The translations under genes and the position numbers were made by a program. Positions 7,181 through 28,722 of a DNA stretch of 28,749 bases are shown one piece after another. The notes beneath the pieces were generated by a model. The model did no database searches, was not told the origin of the DNA, and was given only the letters and a program-made list of their open reading frames with translations. Within the stretch, counting starts at the first letter, position 1. Each line of letters opens with the position of its first letter. Origin of the DNA: a virus; IMG/VR virus record IMGVR_UViG_3300006810_000280, positions 1-28,749 of that record. The stretch is one strand, 5' to 3'.

Positions 7181-7987
7181 TCATGAGTAGTTGCGGCCGT
7201 CTGCCAATAGGTCAATCGCGTTGGGTTCTATCACACGTTCCCACACTCCGATGTGATCGATACGGCCGTAAAAAGGATTGTTGTATCCGCCGACAAACGA
7301 TGTTTGCCCTTGATTGTAGGTGCCGGGATTTTGCGCGGCGGTTTTTGTTAGCATGGTTCCTTTGTCAAGCTGGATAAAAACCACAGCTGCACCTGATCCA
7401 GATGTGTATGCTCCAAAGGCAACATGATACCAAGTATTCATGTTAATCAGCCCGCAATCTTTTTCGACCCATTGCGGCGTCGGAAATGAGTCGTCGTAGA
7501 TTCCGAATTTCATCCGCTTTGGGTCGCCCGCTGTCGTGCAACTCTCCAACATTAACCGTGAGTTGACAGGATCGCCGCCAACCTCAGCCCCACTGCTATT
7601 CGTCCCTAAAATGTATTCCTCAGAATTCGTTGTGCCGTATGCGTAAAGCCAAAGGGCGATTGTCTTATCAACCACACCTCCAGAGCCATCCGCAAAACTG
7701 AAAATTCGCCCCGGTCCTGTCGTCGCCGGAGATGCGGTGTATACCGCGAACTGGTCCCCGTATGTCGCCCCGGCTCCAAACTCACGCGCGTCATCCATTT
7801 GACCCGTCGCTGTCGGGATGTTGCTTCCGCTCGTGACGGACATTGTATTGGTCCCTGTCACGTCGATCAGGTCGTCAGTCGCGCCGGATTCGTCGGCCTT
7901 GAACCATGCGACGTAATCCGCAAACTGGTTCCCATCCGCCGCCAAAAAAGCAGGATCAAGCAGGTTGAGGTGCGGTTTGTGAATCAT
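7181..7987 (-). CDS. LamG/concanavalin A-like lectin domain protein, putative adhesin
   Basis: The 268-residue product fits a single jelly-roll domain: an N-terminal FADYVAWFKADES (22-34) segment, core strands around KTIALWLYAYG and NTWYHVAFGAY, and a terminal strand with GRIDHIGVWERVI. This pattern (W-H-V-A and the closing D-x-x-x-V/I-W-x-R element) is typical of LamG/laminin-G-like carbohydrate-binding domains in phage receptor-binding proteins and secreted enzymes. It lies between a fibre gene and a glycosyltransferase. A GGAGG ribosome-binding site lies about 11 bases upstream of the start, one of the few strong ones here. It probably binds a glycan on the host surface, but the ligand cannot be inferred. 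Confidence 0.7.
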   Translation of the reverse strand: MIHKPHLNLLDPAFLAADGNQFADYVAWFKADESGATDDLIDVTGTNTMSVTSGSNIPTATGQMDDAREFGAGATYGDQFAVYTASPATTGPGRIFSFADGSGGVVDKTIALWLYAYGTTNSEEYILGTNSSGAEVGGDPVNSRLMLESCTTAGDPKRMKFGIYDDSFPTPQWVEKDCGLINMNTWYHVAFGAYTSGSGAAVVFIQLDKGTMLTKTAAQNPGTYNQGQTSFVGGYNNPFYGRIDHIGVWERVIEPNAIDLLADGRNYS

Positions 7988-10730: not shown

Positions 10731-11608
10731 TCCGCCTTCACGTATGGGGTTGACGCCTCGAAAATGTCGCCCTTCCAGCGAGTCAATCGAGTGTGTTCCG
10801 CGACGATCAACTCGCCGCTGGCAACCTTGCTAAGATAGTCTGTGCGCGTCGGAACTGTGGTGTCTGTGTAGGTCAGGGTTTCCGCACCTGCGGCGTCGAT
10901 GATTAGCTCGGGCTCCCATATCGGAATATCCTCGACGTTTTGAACGTTCGGCGAAATTCCGGGAATGTAATAGTCAAACGTTACCATTGCCGGCACTGCG
11001 TTTGTGCGCGGCTCGCGGCCGTCCTCGACCTTCTGCATGGTCAGGAAATAGAGGCTGTTGTTATTGGGTGCTGTGACAGGATCTGTCACAACAGTCGTGC
11101 CGCTCGTGCCGGTCAACGCAGTCCGGCGAACAACAAACGAAGTCTGAATGCCTGCGGGATACTGAATCTGCGTTGCTTTGATGACGACACGGTCGCCGAC
11201 GCTCACTGATGGATTGCTCGACACGGTGAATGTGTGGACACCGCTCGCGAGCGTGGAACCGGAAATAGTGACGAGCGGGTAAACCTGATCCGATCCAATG
11301 CCGCGGAACGTGTAGGAGATTTGCCGCGTCTCTGTGCGGCTGATCGGAATCATTGAATACTCGCGTTGGAACTGAACAATCCCGGCTCCAATGTGCTGCG
11401 TTGGCGTCTCATCGACGAGGTAGTAGGGGCTGCCGCCGATGAACTCCGAGCTCATGAAAAGTGGCGGAGTCCAACTGTCTTGCCGTTGGAAAAACGTCTG
11501 GCGAAAGGCGCGCGTCGTCACGTCGCCGGACGCGTAGAACGGCAGATAGAATTGCCGCGGTCCATTCGCGACGGGCACGGTGAAATTGCCATCGAATATG
11601 CGGCTCAT
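10727..11608 (-). CDS. tail-tip protein of unknown family, directly after the tape measure
   Basis: The 293-residue product is beta-rich, with Thr/Ser/Val alternation and few cysteines. It has a distinctive N terminus (MSRIFDGNFTV) and central repeats of strands. I recognise no family. In siphoviruses the gene directly after the tape measure usually encodes the distal tail or baseplate hub connection, so a tail-tip role is reasonable. The 882-bp gene overlaps both neighbours by ATGA. No enzymatic motif is visible. It could be a lambda gpM/gpL-like component, but this was not confirmed. Confidence 0.45.
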   Translation of the reverse strand: MSRIFDGNFTVPVANGPRQFYLPFYASGDVTTRAFRQTFFQRQDSWTPPLFMSSEFIGGSPYYLVDETPTQHIGAGIVQFQREYSMIPISRTETRQISYTFRGIGSDQVYPLVTISGSTLASGVHTFTVSSNPSVSVGDRVVIKATQIQYPAGIQTSFVVRRTALTGTSGTTVVTDPVTAPNNNSLYFLTMQKVEDGREPRTNAVPAMVTFDYYIPGISPNVQNVEDIPIWEPELIIDAAGAETLTYTDTTVPTRTDYLSKVASGELIVAEHTRLTRWKGDIFEASTPYVKAE

Positions 11609-12978
11609 TGGTTCAGTTGTTGGACAGCCTCGCGCATTGTTCGCACTTGCTGGTTCAGGTCTTGCAACTCGGAGTTTGACTGCGTTACGGCATCCTCAAG
11701 CGCAGCCATCGGCCTCTGTTCGCCCGTCGTCAATTCTGACAAATGAGAGCGCATTTGCCGCGCGGTTGCAAACGCATCCTGAGACGGCTGAAACAATCCA
11801 AGCTCTGCAAGTCTGCGTCCCTCTTGCTCGTGAGCGCGGGCCAACCTCGCCCGCTGTGTCTGGCGCACAAGGTTTGTCAGATTGATACCGCTGCCGGCGT
11901 CTATCAATCGCTGGATCGCGTCGGCTTCCTGATGCCTGCCAGATCGGCGCAGCGCAGCGACACGCGCAGCGCGGTTGCGGTTGATCGCGACATGCTCGCG
12001 GAGGTTCTGCGCGATGTTCCGGTCAGCGAGTCCGTCAAGGTCTGTTCTGGACTGATCCTCCCGCGCGTTGGCGAGTCTGCGTCGCGCGTCGGCTTGCCGT
12101 TTCATTAGGTCGACTTTTTGACGCTCAAGCGCAACCTGCTTTTCCGCTTCTTGGGTCGTCATCTCGGAAATTCTGCGCATTTCGTCGGCGGTGTTTTTCG
12201 CGTCAACTTGCGCGTTGGCGATGTCTCGCGCTGCGTCAAAGCCGATGCCTGTTGACATGGCTCCCATCAATGCGTATCCGCGCTCAAGCGCGTCTATAAA
12301 CGATCCAAGCTTTTGAGCCACAAACCCTAAAGCTTGAGTACCAAAGGCTTTGAGTTTGTTGGACAGTCGGTTGATTGCAACCAACGCTTTTTGCTCAGTA
12401 ACGACGCCAAGACGCTCTGCTTCGGCGACCATTTCACGCATGCCGTCAGATCCGTTTTGAAGCAACGTCACAAGGGCCGCGCCCTCGGAATCGAACGCTT
12501 GGAACGCGAGTCTCAACCGCTCTTGTTGACTGTCTGCATTCCTGACGGCGTCCGCGTAATCTGCCAGCACGTCGGTCGTGTCGCGCATGTTCCCGTTGTT
12601 GTCTCGGAGTTGGATTCCAAGCTCTTCCATCGTCTTGGCAAGCACGCCTTGCCCTCGCGCTGCCTCGCCAATTCGACGAGTGAAACGTTGTAATGCCATG
12701 TTTGACGCGTTGACGCTGACGCCGTTTTGCTGCGCTGCATGATTCCATGCCTGCAAAAAATCGGTGGAGACTCCAAGCTTTCGCGATGTGTCGATCAGCT
12801 TGTCGGCGAAGTCTGTTACCGATCGCCCAAGCGTCGCGAGTCCAAAGCCAATGCCAAAAAAACCAAGGCTGGACTGCATCGCAGCCTTGAACTTGCCCAT
12901 GCCGGTCTTTGCCTTTGACAGCCCGCGCATAAACGGCGTCACGTTGAGCCCTAGAACTGCTTTGGCGTGCTCTGTCAT
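11605..12978 (-). CDS. phage tail tape measure protein
   Basis: The 457-residue product begins with a typical tape-measure N terminus (NVTPFMRGLSKAKTGMGKFKAAM, about 12-34, shown here only as position and type). A hydrophobic segment with LGFFGIGFGLATLG follows (about 38-51), and the rest is mostly helical, with Ala/Arg/Glu-rich coiled-coil stretches. Such proteins fix tail length and are threaded through the tube. At about 1.5 A per residue, 457 residues imply a tail near 70 nm, short for a siphovirus. The last residues are also coiled-coil. It follows the chaperone-like genes, the usual place for tape measures. Confidence 0.85.
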   Translation of the reverse strand: MTEHAKAVLGLNVTPFMRGLSKAKTGMGKFKAAMQSSLGFFGIGFGLATLGRSVTDFADKLIDTSRKLGVSTDFLQAWNHAAQQNGVSVNASNMALQRFTRRIGEAARGQGVLAKTMEELGIQLRDNNGNMRDTTDVLADYADAVRNADSQQERLRLAFQAFDSEGAALVTLLQNGSDGMREMVAEAERLGVVTEQKALVAINRLSNKLKAFGTQALGFVAQKLGSFIDALERGYALMGAMSTGIGFDAARDIANAQVDAKNTADEMRRISEMTTQEAEKQVALERQKVDLMKRQADARRRLANAREDQSRTDLDGLADRNIAQNLREHVAINRNRAARVAALRRSGRHQEADAIQRLIDAGSGINLTNLVRQTQRARLARAHEQEGRRLAELGLFQPSQDAFATARQMRSHLSELTTGEQRPMAALEDAVTQSNSELQDLNQQVRTMREAVQQLNQ

Positions 12979-14684: not shown

Positions 14685-15479
14685 CTATGATGTGCGACGA
14701 GCGCGGGAGCGAACCCGCATCCCTATTGCAATGTCTTTGGCGTAACCGGAATTGATTAGCCGGATCTTGCGTTTGATCGCTGAAAGCCTGATCCGCAAAA
14801 CGTCACGCATGAATTGATTGAGCTCTGATGCACCTCGGGCAGAGTTGGTCATGATCGCGGTCACTGCATTTGTTCCAGCTCCGCGGAGTTGCGACGTTCC
14901 ACGCGCGCCGGCCTCGTGACGACGTGATACCCATTTGGGAACTTTTCCTTGAAACTGCCTGACCGCAGGAATCCAGCCCGCTTTCAATCGCCCGACGTTC
15001 TGTTGCTTGCGCTTAATGTATCGCGCGCGCACTCGCTCCGGAACGACGACGCGCTTGTTCTCGATCCATCGCCCGCCGCCAGTAGTTCTCGCGCGGCTCT
15101 GGATTCTGCCGCGCCGGTCGCGTTGGCTGTTGTGGTATTCCTCAAGCCTGTCGTCCGTCAATTGTGCTCGATGCCATTCGATCGACGGCTCTTCGGTGTC
15201 GCCCGTGAACAGCTTGATATTGTCGCCGCTTCCGCCGTTCTCGTTCATGGCGTGACGGATCAAGCTTTCAGGCGCGCCGGCAATGATCTTCTTGATGTCG
15301 CGCTCGACTGCCTTGCGTCCCTGGCCTTGGGTTTTGGGAGGCGTGCGGCGCATGGCCTGCTCAGCAAACAAGCGGCTTTCAACTCTGACAATCGTGTCAG
15401 CGTCCTTGCCTGCCGCAATCGCCAAGTCTGCAAGCGTGCGGTTTAGCTCGGACGTGTCCATTGAGTAGGTGAGGCTCAT
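14685..15479 (-). CDS. putative tail completion / minor tail protein (HK97 gp10-like position)
   Basis: The 264-residue product is very basic. It has a helical N terminus (SELNRTLADLAIAAGKDADT, about 10-29), RTPPKTQG (45-52) and a long Arg/Lys-rich middle and C terminus. The start of the protein and the R-T-P-x-x-T-G turn look like HK97 gp10-like or phage virion morphogenesis proteins that complete the head-tail interface. It is longer than those families (usually about 130-160 aa), with an extra basic C-terminal region that could contact DNA. The gene overlaps the BppU-like gene by ATGA. Confidence 0.45.
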   Translation of the reverse strand: MSLTYSMDTSELNRTLADLAIAAGKDADTIVRVESRLFAEQAMRRTPPKTQGQGRKAVERDIKKIIAGAPESLIRHAMNENGGSGDNIKLFTGDTEEPSIEWHRAQLTDDRLEEYHNSQRDRRGRIQSRARTTGGGRWIENKRVVVPERVRARYIKRKQQNVGRLKAGWIPAVRQFQGKVPKWVSRRHEAGARGTSQLRGAGTNAVTAIMTNSARGASELNQFMRDVLRIRLSAIKRKIRLINSGYAKDIAIGMRVRSRARRTS

Positions 15480-15808
15480 CGGTCATCCCTGATTCTAAGC
15501 TCGATGTATGCCTTGTTCGGCGCGGCCATCGTTTTACCGCTCGAAAATGTCACTCGAAAAAATCCCTCATAGAGTCCCGGTGTCGTCGTGTCCGATGCGC
15601 CCCACGATGCGCGCACCGATCCGTTGGCCGCGTCCGTCAACGAGCACGTAACAACCGTCGCGTCTGCGTCTGCGTCGCTCTTGAGCCAGTAGCGGAATTG
15701 CACTGTTGCGCCGGTCAAGTCGATCGCAGAGCCGGCCGCGTCCTTGATGACAGCGTCAAGCACGGGCTCGCGGTCGCCCTCGCCGAGATAGATTGTTGTC
15801 GTTGCCAT
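15476..15808 (-). CDS. BppU-N-like immunoglobulin-fold virion protein
   Basis: The 110-residue product matches the layout of the N-terminal domain of phage baseplate upper proteins. It starts with a polar strand and GDREPVLDAVIKD (11-23), then AIDLTGATVQFRYW (28-41), a Gly/Ala turn, a G-L-Y-E-G-F-F strand (77-83) and a final PNKAYIELRI strand. This is a small beta-sandwich, here without the usual C-terminal extension. In other phages it anchors adhesins in the baseplate. Here it lies between the 14-residue-repeat gene and the tail completion gene, suggesting a structural rather than enzymatic role. Confidence 0.6.
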   Translation of the reverse strand: MATTTIYLGEGDREPVLDAVIKDAAGSAIDLTGATVQFRYWLKSDADADATVVTCSLTDAANGSVRASWGASDTTTPGLYEGFFRVTFSSGKTMAAPNKAYIELRIRDDR

Positions 15809-15821
15809 AGCGTTTTTCGAT

Positions 15822-16421
15822 TTAGACGATCGTCACCAACGTTTCCGTGCTGGTCGCGGTCGCGATCGTCGGCGCGCCTGCAGTCGATGTGGTCGGAGTG
15901 ATCGTGATCGTGAACGTTGAATCTGGAGGCGGCTCCTCAACGTTCCAAGATACCGCCAGCGTATCAATCCCGCGATCTCGCACGCTCCACGACGCGTCAA
16001 GTGTCTCGGTATCCCTTGTTCTGACGCTCCACGATGACGCTACAGTGTCGGTGTCGCGACTGCGCACGTCCCACGTCAACGATTGCGTGTCAGTGCCGCG
16101 CTCTATGATGCTCCATGATGCGTCAAGAGTCTCTGTGTCGCGCGCTCGCACGCTCCACGATGCGGCTACAGTGCCGGCATCACGCGCGCGGACAGACCAG
16201 CTTGCGGCGGCGGTGTCTATTCCGCGGCTGCGCACGTTCCATGTAGCGGCTTGCGTGTCAGTCGCTCGGGCTCGCACGCTCCACGATGCCGCGGCCGTGT
16301 CGATGGCGCGGGCGCGCACGGACCACGACGAGTCAACGGTCTTGCTGCTGCGTGACGTGCCGGCTGTTTCGGCGTAGCCGTTGACGACGTAGGTCTTGCC
16401 TATGTAGTTCGCGGCGATCAT
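15822..16421 (-). CDS. 14-residue tandem-repeat virion protein
   Basis: The 199-residue product has a short N terminus (1-31), then nine full copies of a 14-residue repeat (32-157) and a partial tenth, followed by a Pro/Thr-rich tail. Repeat consensus is (S/T)W(S/N/D)VRxRxxDTxxA, so each unit carries one Trp, two Arg and an acidic-Thr pair. Such regular short repeats are expected to form a beta-solenoid or a set of beta-hairpins, and similar Trp repeats occur in some phage tail-associated proteins. It overlaps the upstream small fibre partner by ATGA. The function is unknown; I infer a fibre, spike or decoration role. Repeat number may vary among relatives. Confidence 0.6.
   Translation of the reverse strand: MIAANYIGKTYVVNGYAETAGTSRSSKTVDSSWSVRARAIDTAAASWSVRARATDTQAATWNVRSRGIDTAAASWSVRARDAGTVAASWSVRARDTETLDASWSIIERGTDTQSLTWDVRSRDTDTVASSWSVRTRDTETLDASWSVRDRGIDTLAVSWNVEEPPPDSTFTITITPTTSTAGAPTIATATSTETLVTIV
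15951..16328 (-). repeat. nine 42-bp in-frame tandem repeats
   Basis: The repeats encode the 14-residue unit of the previous gene. They are imperfect at DNA level but all in the same frame, and (S/T)W opens every unit. Units 5 and 8 share DTETLDA endings, and units 2 and 6 share TDTQ, suggesting block duplication as well as single-unit growth. Confidence 0.85.
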
Positions 16422-16783
16422 GCAGGCCAGTTGGCGTCGTTGGCGGTCAAATTAACATCAGCCTCCAGTCTGTCAGACTCAGCGCGAACAGATTTCACCC
16501 AATCCCAAATAGCCTGTAAAGCTGCGCTCTCAGCCTCCTCATCAACTGTCGGCGTTGCCTTGGTGTTAAGCTCAACCATGCGCGCGATCATGTTCCGCTG
16601 CTTCCACTCCGGGTAGCGGTCGGTGATAACTTTACATGCAGCAGCTTTGATGTCTGGAATGCGCTGATCGGCAGCTTCCTCGGCTTCACGTTGCGCCTGC
16701 GCTGCCTGCTCCGCCTCATGGGCCGCCTGCTCGTCGGCCGTCATGTCTCGAGTGATTCCGTGCTTGTGGATTTTTAACGCCAT
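16418..16783 (-). CDS. small fibre-associated protein, possible tail fibre assembly factor
   Basis: I chose the ATG at 16783 rather than an earlier one at 16864, because it lies 1 bp after the upstream stop and gives a natural N terminus (MALKIHKHGITRDM). The 121-residue product has an Ala/Glu-rich helix (about 16-40), then CKVITDRYPEWKQRNMIAR (49-67) and another helix. The segment RYPEWKQRNM resembles one often seen in small phage proteins encoded after tail fibre genes. These act as fibre assembly chaperones or as fibre tips. It follows the polyglycine fibre gene directly, in line with this role. Confidence 0.5.
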   Translation of the reverse strand: MALKIHKHGITRDMTADEQAAHEAEQAAQAQREAEEAADQRIPDIKAAACKVITDRYPEWKQRNMIARMVELNTKATPTVDEEAESAALQAIWDWVKSVRAESDRLEADVNLTANDANWPA

Positions 16784-16784
16784 T

Positions 16785-17927
<1,143 letters not shown>

Positions 17928-17931
17928 GATG

Positions 17932-18471
17932 TTATGCGGCTGTGTCCCATGCGATTCCGAGTGTGAACCCGTCCGCGTCGATTGCGGCGGTGTCGGCTGC
18001 CGTCCTGCGAATCCAGATCGCGCGACACTCGCCGGCCGCAATGTCGCCAACGCTGATTCCGGTTCCGTCCGTGGTCGGGCTGCTGAAGCTCTCGCCGCTC
18101 GGCGCGGTTGATTCGTCGGCGACCTCGTCGGCCTGCGCACTTGCGCTACCGATCGCGCTGGCAGCGGTGCCGTCGACTGCGAGCGCGATGCTTGCGCCGC
18201 CCGCGGTTTCGCTGTCGATGTAGACGCTGACGGATTCCGCGGTCAGGCTGCCGTGGGCGTTGTGAATGAACACGCAGCGGTATTCTACGTCACTGGCCGC
18301 GTTTTCCGTTCCACTGATCGCGTCGAACAGATCATGAAGACTCGTTCCGACCTCGGTGGTGGAGATGTATTTTCCGAGCGATGCGTTTGGGTCGGCTTGG
18401 GCTGCGCTGTTGCCGGCCGATCCCGTTTTGATGCTCAGCTTAACTTTGATGTCCGATGCTGCAATGGCCAT
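17932..18471 (-). CDS. virion structural protein of unknown function
   Basis: The 179-residue product starts MAIAASDIKVKLSIKTG and is rich in Ala, Ser, Thr and Asp. Alternating strands occur in DVEYRCVFIHNAHGS (61-75) and SVSVYIDS (80-87), and it ends in a strand with GFTLGIAWD. This start and the centre resemble phage virion proteins near the head-tail joint that I recall from other phages, but no function is known to me. AGGA lies about 8 bases before the start. It is cotranscribed with the connector candidate upstream. A neck or decoration role is inferred from position. Confidence 0.5.
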   Translation of the reverse strand: MAIAASDIKVKLSIKTGSAGNSAAQADPNASLGKYISTTEVGTSLHDLFDAISGTENAASDVEYRCVFIHNAHGSLTAESVSVYIDSETAGGASIALAVDGTAASAIGSASAQADEVADESTAPSGESFSSPTTDGTGISVGDIAAGECRAIWIRRTAADTAAIDADGFTLGIAWDTAA

Positions 18472-24318: not shown

Positions 24319-26256
24319 TTAGCGTATCAGGTCCCAGATGCCGCCAATGTCCAGCGCGGCCATCTGCATTTGTTCAGTGTCGGGTATGTCGTGACGCCCT
24401 TTTTCTTTCCACTCGTATCCGGTTATCTGTCCGGCAGCGTCGACGGTCGGAACGCGCGTCACGTTCTGCATCTGCGCAAAATACTCATCCGGCGCGTTCG
24501 CCGCGACAGTCCACCAATGCGGCGGAAGCTTTTCCGGCGACGCTGCCTCTTTCACCTCGCCGGCACGGGCTCGGATGTTCGACACAAACAGTGTTTCGCG
24601 GTAGTGCGACTTGGAAAACGAGTAGACAAGGATCTCGCGACCATCGCCCGTGCGCTCTACGTCCTGCTTCCAGTGCTGCCTCATTCGCACACTCTGGTTC
24701 GTCACTTGGAAGTTTGCCGCCTTGTGTCCGCGAACTGGGTTCCATCCGTTCCATATCGGCGCGTGCCTGCTGCCGGCCCACGATCCGTGATCGCGGCAAG
24801 CGCGTTTGACCTCGTCCGGCTTGTAGGCGCAATCGATGAAAACCCATGCGTTCGCGACTTTGCGCGACTCTTGAAACAAGCGCAACTCTTGGAATCCTAG
24901 CAGGTTGCCGACATCAACAAGGCGCGACTCTATGGAGCGCGTTTCCGTGTCGACGATGACTTGGCGCAGGCAATAGACGATGAACCCCTGCTGATTGTCG
25001 ACGGTGATAATGCGAGCCTCGCGGAGGTGATCGGCGCGGCTCTGGTCGATGATGCGGAACTCGCCGATTGAGTGATTCCCGACGCAGGCGTCAAGGTCGC
25101 CTTTCTCGATCTTCTCCCCGCCTGGAGGCTCCCATGATTCGCCAAGCGTCTCCGTGACGAAAACGCGCAGCGGCGCAAGGTCGCCCTGCTTTTGCGCGAC
25201 GCGTGCCTTCAGGAACTTCTTGACGATCTCCGGCCACGCGCATTCCGGCCACGGCATATATGCTTCCCACCAATGGCAAGAGATTTGATCGGATGGAGCT
25301 AGCGGGTTTGTCTGAATGGGGCGCAGCGTCGAGTAGAGCCGGAACTTTTCATGATCCGCGAACCGATGCCGGCACGCTGGATTATCGCACTCATACCGGA
25401 CTGTCTTGGCTAACTCCTCCCAATCCCACGCGTTTTCTCCCGGCTTCGTCCTCTCGTTGGTTTCCCACACGAATCCGCCGCACTCGCGCGGCTTCGGATG
25501 CAGCGTCGTTGCGTCGCGGCCGAAGCGGAACGTTTGAGCGTGCCCGCACTCGGGGCAATCCCAGAACCAGAGATGCTGCGACCCCTCACGAAAGCTTAGA
25601 TCGAGTTCGCAGTTTAAATCGCCGGCCGTCGAGAACCCGAAAAACTGCCAGTTGCGAATCGACTTGAAGCGGTTGCGGATTTGCGTTGCGGCTCCGGGCG
25701 GGTATTTCCGCCACTCGTCCAAGAATACGGTGCCTACGCTGATTGACTCGCGGGCCGATGATGTTACCGCGCTCAAAATGTGCAAATCCATGTTCGCGAA
25801 CTGAACAAGCTTGTTCGTGAGCCGGTCGCGGGAGTGCGGAACGAGGTGCGCGACCGCTGGACAGTTTTCAAAGTCTGCCTTGAACCTCGTTTTCCAGAAT
25901 GACTTCGCCTTTTCTTGCGAATCGAGATACCACGCGGAGTGTCCGGGCCGGTTGCGGAGTTTCCAGATTGCGCAGAACTCCGCGGTCTTGGTTTTGGCGC
26001 ACTGCGCAGCAACCTGGAGCGTGATCGATCGCTTGGAGCGGTCTTGGAATGAGTCGACCACGAAGCGCGACATGGGAACAAGGTCGAAGGAAACAGGGCC
26101 GGGGATGTCAGCGTCAGGGCCGAAGACGACGTTTTCCTCGATCCATTGCGAGGCGGGTATGTCGGGCTCAACCTTCCAAGCGGCCGAAACGATGTCGGAC
26201 AGAATTATTTCCTCCGTGATCCGGCGAGCTTCGGCTTTGATGTCAATTTTCCCCAT
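24319..26256 (-). CDS. terminase large subunit, GpA type
   Basis: The 645-residue product has the ATPase-nuclease layout of lambda gpA-like terminases. It shows a Walker A-like segment VAAQCAKTKTAEF (82-94), Walker B VFLDEW (177-182), a Zn-binding CPEC (234-237) with CDNPAC (290-295), and a nuclease part starting at IITVDNQQG (416-424, Asp420 as a metal ligand) and IDCAY (474-478). The enzyme cuts concatemers and pumps DNA into the prohead. The start overlaps the methyltransferase stop as TAATG. The P-loop lacks the usual glycine before the Lys-Thr pair, which deserves checking. Confidence 0.88.
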   Translation of the reverse strand: MGKIDIKAEARRITEEIILSDIVSAAWKVEPDIPASQWIEENVVFGPDADIPGPVSFDLVPMSRFVVDSFQDRSKRSITLQVAAQCAKTKTAEFCAIWKLRNRPGHSAWYLDSQEKAKSFWKTRFKADFENCPAVAHLVPHSRDRLTNKLVQFANMDLHILSAVTSSARESISVGTVFLDEWRKYPPGAATQIRNRFKSIRNWQFFGFSTAGDLNCELDLSFREGSQHLWFWDCPECGHAQTFRFGRDATTLHPKPRECGGFVWETNERTKPGENAWDWEELAKTVRYECDNPACRHRFADHEKFRLYSTLRPIQTNPLAPSDQISCHWWEAYMPWPECAWPEIVKKFLKARVAQKQGDLAPLRVFVTETLGESWEPPGGEKIEKGDLDACVGNHSIGEFRIIDQSRADHLREARIITVDNQQGFIVYCLRQVIVDTETRSIESRLVDVGNLLGFQELRLFQESRKVANAWVFIDCAYKPDEVKRACRDHGSWAGSRHAPIWNGWNPVRGHKAANFQVTNQSVRMRQHWKQDVERTGDGREILVYSFSKSHYRETLFVSNIRARAGEVKEAASPEKLPPHWWTVAANAPDEYFAQMQNVTRVPTVDAAGQITGYEWKEKGRHDIPDTEQMQMAALDIGGIWDLIR

Positions 26257-27056
26257 TATGGTTTAGTAACGTTACTTCGGTGATTTGCACTGTTCCCCGA
26301 ATACATTGCAGCGCGCACCGCTCGGGCAACGGCGCGGCCCATTGGCAACGGCACTCCATTTGCGATCGCGCGGCGAAGTTCCGTCGTGGTGAATGGCGTT
26401 TTCTCGAATCGCGCCGGGTCGATGCCTTGCGCTTCGGCCATGTAGGCGATTCTTGCACGGTTCCGCTGGGCGCTTCCCTTCCAGTCCGCTTGCCCGGTGC
26501 TGACTACCGTTGGTAGCTCGTCCACAGCTTCCAGAGCGGCGGGCTGGATGTGGAAGCGGCTTGCGCCTTCCTTCGCCCCGAACGTGAAGCGGCGGCGGCG
26601 GCGCTGTTCTCCACCGCACCAACGGTTGTCACAGAGTCGCGATACTATTTCGTAGCCTTCGATTTCCGGCACCGGAACGGTTGGGACGTTTTCCATCACG
26701 AACCATTCGGGCTGCGCTTCCGCTACGCATCGAGCGTAGTCCGGGATCATGTCCGGCATCACCGAGTCATCGCCCCACCTTGCGATGTTCACGTTCCCGA
26801 GTCCGCTGAATCTCTGGCAGGGTGGACCGCCGATGATGCCCGCGAACTTGCCAGCCGGAGGGTGGAAGTTGCGGATGTCGCCACCCCAAATCAGGTCCGG
26901 CCCGCGCACGATGATGAAGCCCTCCTCCTCGAATGCCTGGTCAAGCAGGCCGATCCAAGGGAACAACGACAACACCAACGGGGAACAAGACGCTGGTGAC
27001 AATGACTGCCCGGCGGGAGTCACTGGCGAAGCGGAGGATGAAGGGCGGGCAGTCAT
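26256..27056 (-). CDS. DNA C5-cytosine methyltransferase, second copy
   Basis: The 266-residue product has motif I LSLFPWIGLLDQAF (29-42), motif IV GGPPCQRFSG (76-85, Cys80 as nucleophile), motif VI MENVP (121-125), motif VIII QRRRRRF (151-157) and motif X-like VPLPMGRAVARAV near the end. It is compact, with a very short target-recognition region. The N-terminal 27 residues are Ser/Pro-rich and probably unstructured; a start further downstream at GTG or TTG is possible. It lies between the small and large terminase genes, an unusual place. It likely protects phage DNA from host nucleases (inference). Its recognition sequence is unknown. Confidence 0.85.
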   Translation of the reverse strand: MTARPSSSASPVTPAGQSLSPASCSPLVLSLFPWIGLLDQAFEEEGFIIVRGPDLIWGGDIRNFHPPAGKFAGIIGGPPCQRFSGLGNVNIARWGDDSVMPDMIPDYARCVAEAQPEWFVMENVPTVPVPEIEGYEIVSRLCDNRWCGGEQRRRRRFTFGAKEGASRFHIQPAALEAVDELPTVVSTGQADWKGSAQRNRARIAYMAEAQGIDPARFEKTPFTTTELRRAIANGVPLPMGRAVARAVRAAMYSGNSANHRSNVTKP

Positions 27057-27064
27057 GTCACAGC

Positions 27065-27688
27065 TCAGCGTTGTGCCTTGCTTCCCTTCGCCGCTTTCCT
27101 CTTTGGCTTCGCTTTCGCCTTCGCCTTCGCCTTCGCTTTACGCTTCGGCGCAACCCGTCGCTTCTTCGCCGCCGGCTTCTTGATCGGCTCCGGCTCCTGC
27201 GCATCGCTCCATTGCGTCGACGCTAGTGTTTCCGCAACCGCCTTACATTCGTTCTCGATCTGCTCCTGCAACCAGTCGGCCTGATCTTTGGTCAACCCGA
27301 GCTTGAGCTGCGCCCGCGGCGCGATCGATGCGCCAAGCAGCAGAAACCGCGACTTGGCGACCGATACATGGCGAGTGATGACAGTTCGGATTGACTCCTC
27401 CGCAATCAGCTTTTTGCGCGCTTCCTCAAGCGCAAGCTCCTTAATCATGCGCTCTGCTCGCGTCTTCTTGGCGCGCTCGACGTGGTAGTCTGGCGACTCC
27501 TGATCGTCGGTGCCGTTCTCCGCGATCCAGTCAAGCAGCTCGTCACATTGCACGTTGCCGTTCGCGCGGAACGCTGCGCAGCCGGCCTTTTGGGCCGCGT
27601 CGACGATGCCGTAGGTCAACTCGCAGCGGGCAGCCGCGGCTTGCTTGTTTGGCGCGAAGCCGAGCTTGGTTTTGGTATGGTCGCTCAT
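27065..27688 (-). CDS. putative small terminase subunit (Nu1-like) with Lys/Ala tail
   Basis: The 207-residue product has an N-terminal DNA-binding-like half (1-60), a long helical centre (70-150, with ELALEEARKKLIAEESIRTV, about 84-103, given as position) and an extremely basic C-terminal tail (about 165-207; repeats of KA and KR). Nu1-like terminase small subunits bind cos DNA and assist the large subunit. The central pattern and location before the large terminase support this role. The basic tail is unusual and resembles histone H1-like tails. The start overlaps the upstream methyltransferase stop by ATGA. Confidence 0.55.
   Translation of the reverse strand: MSDHTKTKLGFAPNKQAAAARCELTYGIVDAAQKAGCAAFRANGNVQCDELLDWIAENGTDDQESPDYHVERAKKTRAERMIKELALEEARKKLIAEESIRTVITRHVSVAKSRFLLLGASIAPRAQLKLGLTKDQADWLQEQIENECKAVAETLASTQWSDAQEPEPIKKPAAKKRRVAPKRKAKAKAKAKAKPKRKAAKGSKAQR
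27108..27137 (-). repeat. five TTCGC(C/T) hexamers encoding the Lys-Ala tail
   Basis: On the plus strand, five hexamers run without gaps. On the minus strand they read AAGGCG-type codons, giving alternating Lys and Ala in the small terminase tail. In-frame expansion or contraction would change tail charge. Confidence 0.85.
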
Positions 27689-28722
27689 TTGATCGATTCG
27701 ATACGCCGCCCGATCCAGCGCATGACGGGAACGGCCATTGAGTTTCCAAGCGCATTGTAGCGCGGCCCATCAGGGCAGGCGTCGGCGTCTTTGCCGCGCC
27801 AGGGAATCATTGTGTGACCGTCAGGAAATCCTTGCAACCGCTCGCACTCGGTCGGCGTCAGTCTGCGCACAGCGGTTTGTTCCGGAACCAGCGGCGTCCC
27901 GCGTCCGGTCCCGTCCTCGCTCGCGTCGAAGCCCTCGCCGCCGCCGCTGTCGCCGGGGAAGGTTTCCGTTTCGGAATCGAGCCGACTACCGTGCGATACA
28001 AGGCACTTTGATACCTCTGGAATCATGTATCCCGCTTCGGCGTGGTCTGCGCTGTTGCTCCAGCCACCGCTTCCAGCGCAAGCCTTAAACGTGCCGGCAA
28101 CTTCTTGCCCCGCTTCTCGGCGCGGCGCAGAATCCCCGCGCAGGCACGCGGGCTCAAATAGAACCGCTGCGGCACTTCGCCAGTCTCCAAGACATCCGAC
28201 AACGAACACACGGCGTCGTCGCTGGGGAACTCCGAAGTATTGAGCGTCAAGAACGCGGTAGGCGAACCCATACCCGAGTTGCCCCAGCCCTCCGAGCAAG
28301 GAACCAAACGCTCCTGTTCTATCCGACAGGACGCCGGGGACGTTCTCCCACACCACCCAGCGCGGCCGAAGGCTTTCAAGAAGAGCAAGGAAAACGAGAG
28401 TGAGGTTTCCGCGAGGATCTTCCAAGCCGCGCCTGAGTCCAGCGACTGAGAAGGCTTGGCAGGGTGTTCCTCCAACAATGAGGTCAGGCCGAGTTGCAAG
28501 TTTCCATTCATGATGTTTCGTCAGGTCGCCAAGGTTCGGCACGGTCGGCCAGTGATGATTCAGGACAGCAGCCGGAAATTTCTCGATCTCCGCGAACGCG
28601 ACCGGCGACCAGCCGAGCGGCTTCCACGCGACGCTCGCGGCCTCGATGCCGGAGCATACGGACAGGTAGCTGATTCCGCCTCGTGGCGCGCTCGTGTGTG
28701 ATTTACGATTCGGCTGATTCAT
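27685..28722 (-). CDS. DNA C5-cytosine methyltransferase
   Basis: The 345-residue product has motif I SVCSGIEAASVAW (21-33), motif IV GGTPCQAFS (84-92, Cys88 as nucleophile), motif VI ENVPG (126-130), motif VIII PQRRRRVF (166-173), and motif IX/X elements RLTPTECERLQGFP and YNALGNSM near the C terminus. The region between about 190 and 275 is the likely target-recognition domain. It methylates cytosine C5 in an unknown DNA sequence. It lies at the upstream end of the window, just before the small terminase gene, and shares an ATGA junction with it. Confidence 0.93.
   Translation of the reverse strand: MNQPNRKSHTSAPRGGISYLSVCSGIEAASVAWKPLGWSPVAFAEIEKFPAAVLNHHWPTVPNLGDLTKHHEWKLATRPDLIVGGTPCQAFSVAGLRRGLEDPRGNLTLVFLALLESLRPRWVVWENVPGVLSDRTGAFGSLLGGLGQLGYGFAYRVLDAQYFGVPQRRRRVFVVGCLGDWRSAAAVLFEPACLRGDSAPRREAGQEVAGTFKACAGSGGWSNSADHAEAGYMIPEVSKCLVSHGSRLDSETETFPGDSGGGEGFDASEDGTGRGTPLVPEQTAVRRLTPTECERLQGFPDGHTMIPWRGKDADACPDGPRYNALGNSMAVPVMRWIGRRIESIK

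Follow-up and report, generated by a model that had tools for sequence, protein, structure and literature searches.

By its sequence, the protein P0001 belongs, as a divergent member, to a phage repeat family of wide distribution in which W-x-V recurs every 14 residues (the W-repeat). We propose, at a probability of roughly 0.55, that P0001 forms the stalk of an appendage which is mounted on the head or neck and aids adsorption, and that the length of the stalk is set by the number of repeat units. The gene lies in a stretch of 28,749 bases (the window) that is a complete IMG/VR virus record. The features of the surrounding module are as follows:

15476..15808, minus strand: P0002, 110 aa, Ig-like and BppU_N-like; a gene of this kind recurs immediately after W-repeat genes
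15822..16421, minus strand: P0001, the W-repeat protein, 199 aa; matches a profile HMM of other phage W-repeats at E 2.4e-27
15825..15950, minus strand: degenerate tenth unit of P0001 (SWNVEEPPP) and Thr/Ser-rich C-terminal tail
15951..16328, minus strand: nine contiguous 14-residue units of P0001 (residues 32-157) with a strict 14-residue period; one predicted strand per unit in both models
16418..16783, minus strand: P0003, 121 aa from its likely ATG, between the fibre and repeat genes; not in the near twin
16785..17927, minus strand: P0004, fibre-type, 380 aa from its likely ATG, with a probable poly-Gly hinge and an exchanged body
17932..18471, minus strand: P0006, 179 aa, phrog_13135; regularly accompanies the W-repeat, with a homologue directly following gp15 in KVP40

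The ATG of P0001 overlaps the stop codon of the preceding gene (ATGA). A first-pass annotation of the same DNA described nine uninterrupted units, each with a single Trp, across 15822-16421. All nine are present and are followed by the degenerate tenth; the coordinates given there are those of the gene, the repeat proper spans 15951-16328, and the strand, which the annotation did not give, is minus. Ten Trp fall at exact 14-residue steps. Within the nine units, Trp, Val or Ile, the second Arg and the Thr of the ‘DT’ box are each conserved in 9/9, the first Arg in 8/9 and the Asp in 6/9. Unit 6 (SWSIIERGTDTQSL) and unit 4, where AGT replaces xDT, deviate. Self-matches at period 14 number 74, against a maximum of 34 in 2000 shuffles across all periods from 5 to 44. 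Searches of Pfam, NCBIfam and PDB sequences with P0001 returned no match above cut-off. An antisense ORF (15847-16377, plus strand) is also open, in the mirrored frame. Codon-position statistics cannot pick the strand because the third positions of both frames coincide; neighbours, family homology and synteny all favour the minus strand, and the antisense ORF was rejected as a coding frame.

The units share endings at the protein level, which had been taken as a sign of recent unit duplication. Units 5 and 8 are alike at 13/14 residues, yet they match at 32/42 bases, and all unit pairs match at 17/42 to 32/42 bases, too few for duplication to be recent. Base differences between units amount to 0.57 per site at third codon positions and to 0.27 and 0.33 at the others. 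Since the bases have diverged, mostly at third positions, we regard the units as old, with selection maintaining their likeness. When orthologous units are compared between the window and the near twin, 31 codons differ silently and 21 differ otherwise. The paired Arg noticed earlier is nearly invariant in P0001 as R-x-R and is private to the window and twin: outside the window, a strict W-x-V-R-x-R pattern over two units matched only the twin. A cationic face, also suggested, does not hold, with a net charge per unit of 0.0 in P0001 and of -2.2 to +1.8 across the family.

The family was collected by scanning viral contig DNA for four consecutive W-x-V motifs spaced 14 residues apart; an initial genome scan using a full-length alignment gave zero relatives. 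Among the matches listed, filtering left at least 44 loci (one doubtful, the window and its twin contig, and at least 41 others); in these others the number of 14-residue Trp-Trp steps ranges from about 5 to 49. A profile HMM built from 41 loci, with P0001 and the near twin left out, recovered P0001 (E 2.4e-27) and KVP40 gp15 (E 2.7e-20), and the best of 1000 P0001 shuffles reached E 0.1. Family members are defined by a Trp each 14 residues within W-x-[V/I/L/T], a pattern that P0001 also shows. Column 9 is mostly Val in the family, a hydrophobic residue there being usual but not universal, and is D, G or A in 9/9 units of P0001; column 8 of the P0001 units is Arg throughout. Matches to a W-x-V-R pattern in bacterial genomes were nearly all simple DNA repeats or chance and were set aside; two, L267 and L277, resemble true family members.

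The W-repeat family has so far been filed just as an uncharacterised ‘tail protein’ (phrog_6079), and our search of open-access papers turned up nothing that describes either the repeat or the gp15 extension. Several relatives match phrog_6079, which has no characterised function, at up to 7e-31. P0001 does not match it at E<=1, nor does it in the record at E<=0.001, where control genomes were likewise silent. Many of the W-repeat proteins in L142, L144, L145, L148 and L152 carry a short recurring motif at the C-terminus, for example PEQRVFAIEPEQRVF, which is perhaps a docking tail. The C-terminus of P0001 is unlike this motif.

The repeat domain was modelled with AlphaFold2 from a 35-segment alignment (pLDDT 72, pTM 0.65). 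The model is ordered, with an 11-residue strand and a 3-residue turn in each unit. An earlier, alignment-poor model (pLDDT 52) likewise has one strand per unit and was excluded from fold searches. We predict one β-strand per 14-residue unit with moderate confidence. Of the stacked solenoid originally suggested, a regular β repeat, predicted to be ordered, is retained. In shape the model comes close to the two-sheet β-helix of SufB/SufD (5awg_F, Z 11.2, rmsd 2.1 Å over 139 residues); there is no lag-2 excess in unit-to-unit identity, and the predicted two-sheet coil is thus without support from identity. Foldseek with the repeat model found no PDB match at E<0.001, the best hit of a PDB search using the 35-sequence repeat profile had an E of 0.63, and fold-library searches gave matches at the level of shape only. 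The W-repeat may take the form of an oligomeric β fibre. The adenovirus-type triple β-spiral has a 15-residue repeat with two strands each, unlike P0001 with its period of 14 and one predicted strand per unit.

KVP40-type vibriophages carry the W-repeat as a C-terminal extension of gp15, annotated as a structural neck protein (tail sheath stabiliser). T4-type gp15 is located at the top of the tail. The extension ties the repeat, indirectly and through homology, to the virion. The gp15 cores are nearly identical in the eight KVP40-type phages that align, and their extensions have 153, 194, 236 or 250 residues with 7, 8, 13 or 14 Trp; a ninth phage has an extension of 211 residues with 12 Trp. 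The core is near-constant and the extension variable, and unit number is therefore free to vary. The gp15 extension and P0001 share the Trp every 14 residues, an adjoining P0006 homologue and a unit number that varies among close relatives. They differ in that the gp15 repeat is fused, acidic and without R-x-R, whereas P0001 is free-standing and carries R-x-R; the gp15 core domain (~200 aa) is missing from P0001, which has about 31 residues ahead of its repeat. In Vibrio phage 1.081.O (L134, MG592456.1), positions 2679-2872 within gp15 are annotated as CRISPR spacers, a mis-call that arises from the 42-base W-repeat DNA.

P0006 is the steadiest companion of the repeat. A homologue was found in 18/22 W-repeat contigs and in 1/26 controls, and there weakly; as controls served viral contigs in which the DNA pattern occurs but the family is absent. 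In 13/13 loci whose upstream sequence exceeds 4.5 kb, window and twin included, the homologue lies 0.5-3.9 kb upstream on the same strand, and the P0001 locus has it within ~4 kb. The next gene after gp15 in KVP40 (KVP40.0353, 34% identity) is also a P0006 homologue, and the homologues in KVP40-type phages are 34-38% identical to P0006 over 83%. The order differs, with the homologue after the repeat in KVP40 and before it in the window. The reverse linkage is looser, the repeat being found in the available flanks of 14/35 P0006 loci, at times directly upstream as in KVP40. P0006 has no match in the PDB by sequence.

The other module genes resemble fibres and adhesins. The N-terminus of P0004 matches a tail fibre family (phrog_8469, 5e-13) and a ‘putative tail fiber protein’ in the PDB (8jov_1, 6.9e-8). 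A CCG run (window 17314-17358, 14.7 copies) encodes an 11-residue poly-Gly stretch in P0004 that is probably a flexible hinge. P0002 matches phrog_1084 (1.2e-5) and phrog_1627 (5.6e-6), and Pfam BppU_N below threshold (0.0022). An Ig-like BppU_N-like gene stands right after the repeat in about 12 loci, as found with an iterated profile in which some drift is possible, and in L018 such a part is fused to the repeat protein. L018 and L152 also contain what reads as concanavalin-A-like sequence, and in L141 a phosphodiesterase domain is joined to the repeat.

In a near twin (IMGVR_UViG_3300020054_000583), the P0001 gene has ten units instead of nine, a difference of one unit that arose by gain or loss close to the N-terminal end, and the repeat proteins are 79-85% identical, compared with 93-100% for other structural proteins. 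Nothing in the twin corresponds to the window region 16421-17643, which comprises P0003 and the P0004 body. In place of this region the twin has another fibre remainder and two genes, one of 244 aa that reads as containing concanavalin-A-like sequence and one of 135 aa. Because the twin carries other genes over this region, the repeat abuts an exchanged cassette of the host-recognition type. The boundaries of the exchange are sharp in a relative that is otherwise 89-96% identical.

In the window, the module has the capsid gene to one side and the tape-measure gene to the other, and is apart from the tail-tip genes. The commonest identifiable neighbour families across loci are terminase large subunit, portal, major head protein and protease. 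In an actinobacterial locus (L267, Fodinicola feengrottensis), portal, protease, P0006, the fibre N-terminus, a 31-step repeat, the Ig-like part and a capsid-like protein follow one another in this order; the portal, protease and capsid-like identities were assigned by sequence reading. The position of the module varies: it follows the capsid gene in the window, precedes it in L267, is upstream of terminase in L107, L055 and L112, and is on gp15 in KVP40. Since the module moves between loci, gene order alone cannot place it on the particle. Elsewhere in the window, two C-5 cytosine DNA methyltransferase genes (26256-27056 and 27685-28722) lie close together beside the terminase gene, and the shorter matches its Pfam model partially. 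A concanavalin-A/laminin-G-like protein (7181-7987, E 2e-5, just under the Pfam cut-off) is encoded in the presumed tail-tip region and could be a receptor binder.

The fusion to gp15 and the head and packaging neighbours could also be explained by a non-adhesive stabiliser of the neck or connector, a collar or sleeve at the head-tail joint in which repeats lengthen a cementing ribbon. We consider this unlikely. A fixed joint is hard to square with a unit number that spans about a tenfold range across the family, and with the 7 to 14 Trp that follow a gp15 core which itself barely changes; adhesin-type domains also adjoin the repeat or are fused with it.

Similarly improbable is an ordinary tail-fibre or tail-tip stalk that is in the head gene region by chance. 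P0004 has an N-terminus of the tail-fibre type, relatives match the ‘tail protein’ phrog_6079, and W-repeats are fused to another ‘tail protein’ (phrog_1887, in L143) and to a phosphodiesterase domain with tail-fibre similarity (L141). Against this reading, the module of the window is separate from the tail-tip genes, its neighbours on other contigs are packaging and head genes, and the fusion partner in KVP40 is gp15 and no baseplate protein.

The proposal that copy number tunes length as a molecular ruler survives as a plausible stalk length, and repeat number does vary among relatives (9 and 10 units in the twin pair, about 5 to 49 steps family-wide). A ruler of tail length is very hard to sustain and is contradicted by the separate tape-measure protein (11605-12978), which has the same 457 aa in window and twin despite the differing repeat number; moreover, nine β-strands at ~4.8 Å would span a few nm, and the repeat is predicted to be β, whereas tape measures are a long helix.

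Phage fibres are themselves a known kind of system. The best functional analogue known to us is the head spike of the Rhodobacter capsulatus gene transfer agent (RcGTA), which combines a pentameric jellyroll base with a flexible capsule-binding fibre (PMC7296036); the proposed appendage would resemble it in a β base with a fibre, a head-gene setting and perhaps first contact with the capsule. No W-repeat is reported for these spikes, and we found no significant homology to P0006, P0004 or P0001; the sequence hint is just the match of P0002 to GTA_spike_fiber (E 0.012, below cut-off), which was not reproduced with ten P0002-like proteins. Fibritin neck whiskers (T4 wac; VPHK566_0422) are likewise neck appendages and, in KVP40-type genomes, are encoded beside gp13, gp14 and gp15. 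Fibritin is a trimeric coiled coil, whereas the W-repeat is predicted to be all-β, and KVP40-type genomes hold a separate fibritin whisker gene (VPHK566_0422) in addition to the repeat.

The reading of P0001 as the stalk of an appendage is favoured by family membership, the gp15 fusion with its variable extension, P0006 linkage, head-gene neighbours and module position, as well as by the adhesin-type parts adjoining or fused to the repeat, the exchange of the fibre body and the predicted single strand per unit. Counting against it, neither an anchor nor a binding domain can be recognised in P0001, the position of the module changes, some W-repeats occur in proteins filed as ‘tail protein’, the sole physical anchor lies in a distant phage, the reverse P0006 linkage is looser, and unit-to-unit identity does not back the predicted two-sheet coil.

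As a stalk, each 14-residue unit of P0001 would form one β-strand with Trp mid-strand, and the turn would be made by the residues ahead of the conserved Thr, typically T-D or I-D. Stacked units would build a regular β structure whose length is fixed by their number. P0006, the P0004 fibre with its exchangeable body, the W-repeat stalk and P0002 as an Ig-like cap or adaptor would together constitute an appendage cassette. We infer that in the window phage this appendage is located on the head or neck and not at the tail tip, projects from the particle, and helps it to bind the cell surface or to linger there.

Our analysis places a formerly anonymous repeat within a recurrent, widespread gene module of phage particles. 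We suggest, at rather less than even odds, that the W-repeat, P0006 and the Ig-like cap represent an undescribed and widespread modular head/neck appendage of tailed phages, with hosts ranging from Vibrio to Actinomycetota. Its stalk would lengthen or shorten in evolution as units are added or dropped, and in KVP40-type phages it may make up an additional set of neck fibres, based on gp15 and separate from the fibritin whiskers. KVP40-type vibriophages, with the repeat fused to a neck protein and natural length variants, are a cultivable test case. If true, this would add a class of phage head/neck fibre of adjustable length and would give names to many structural genes now annotated as ‘hypothetical’.
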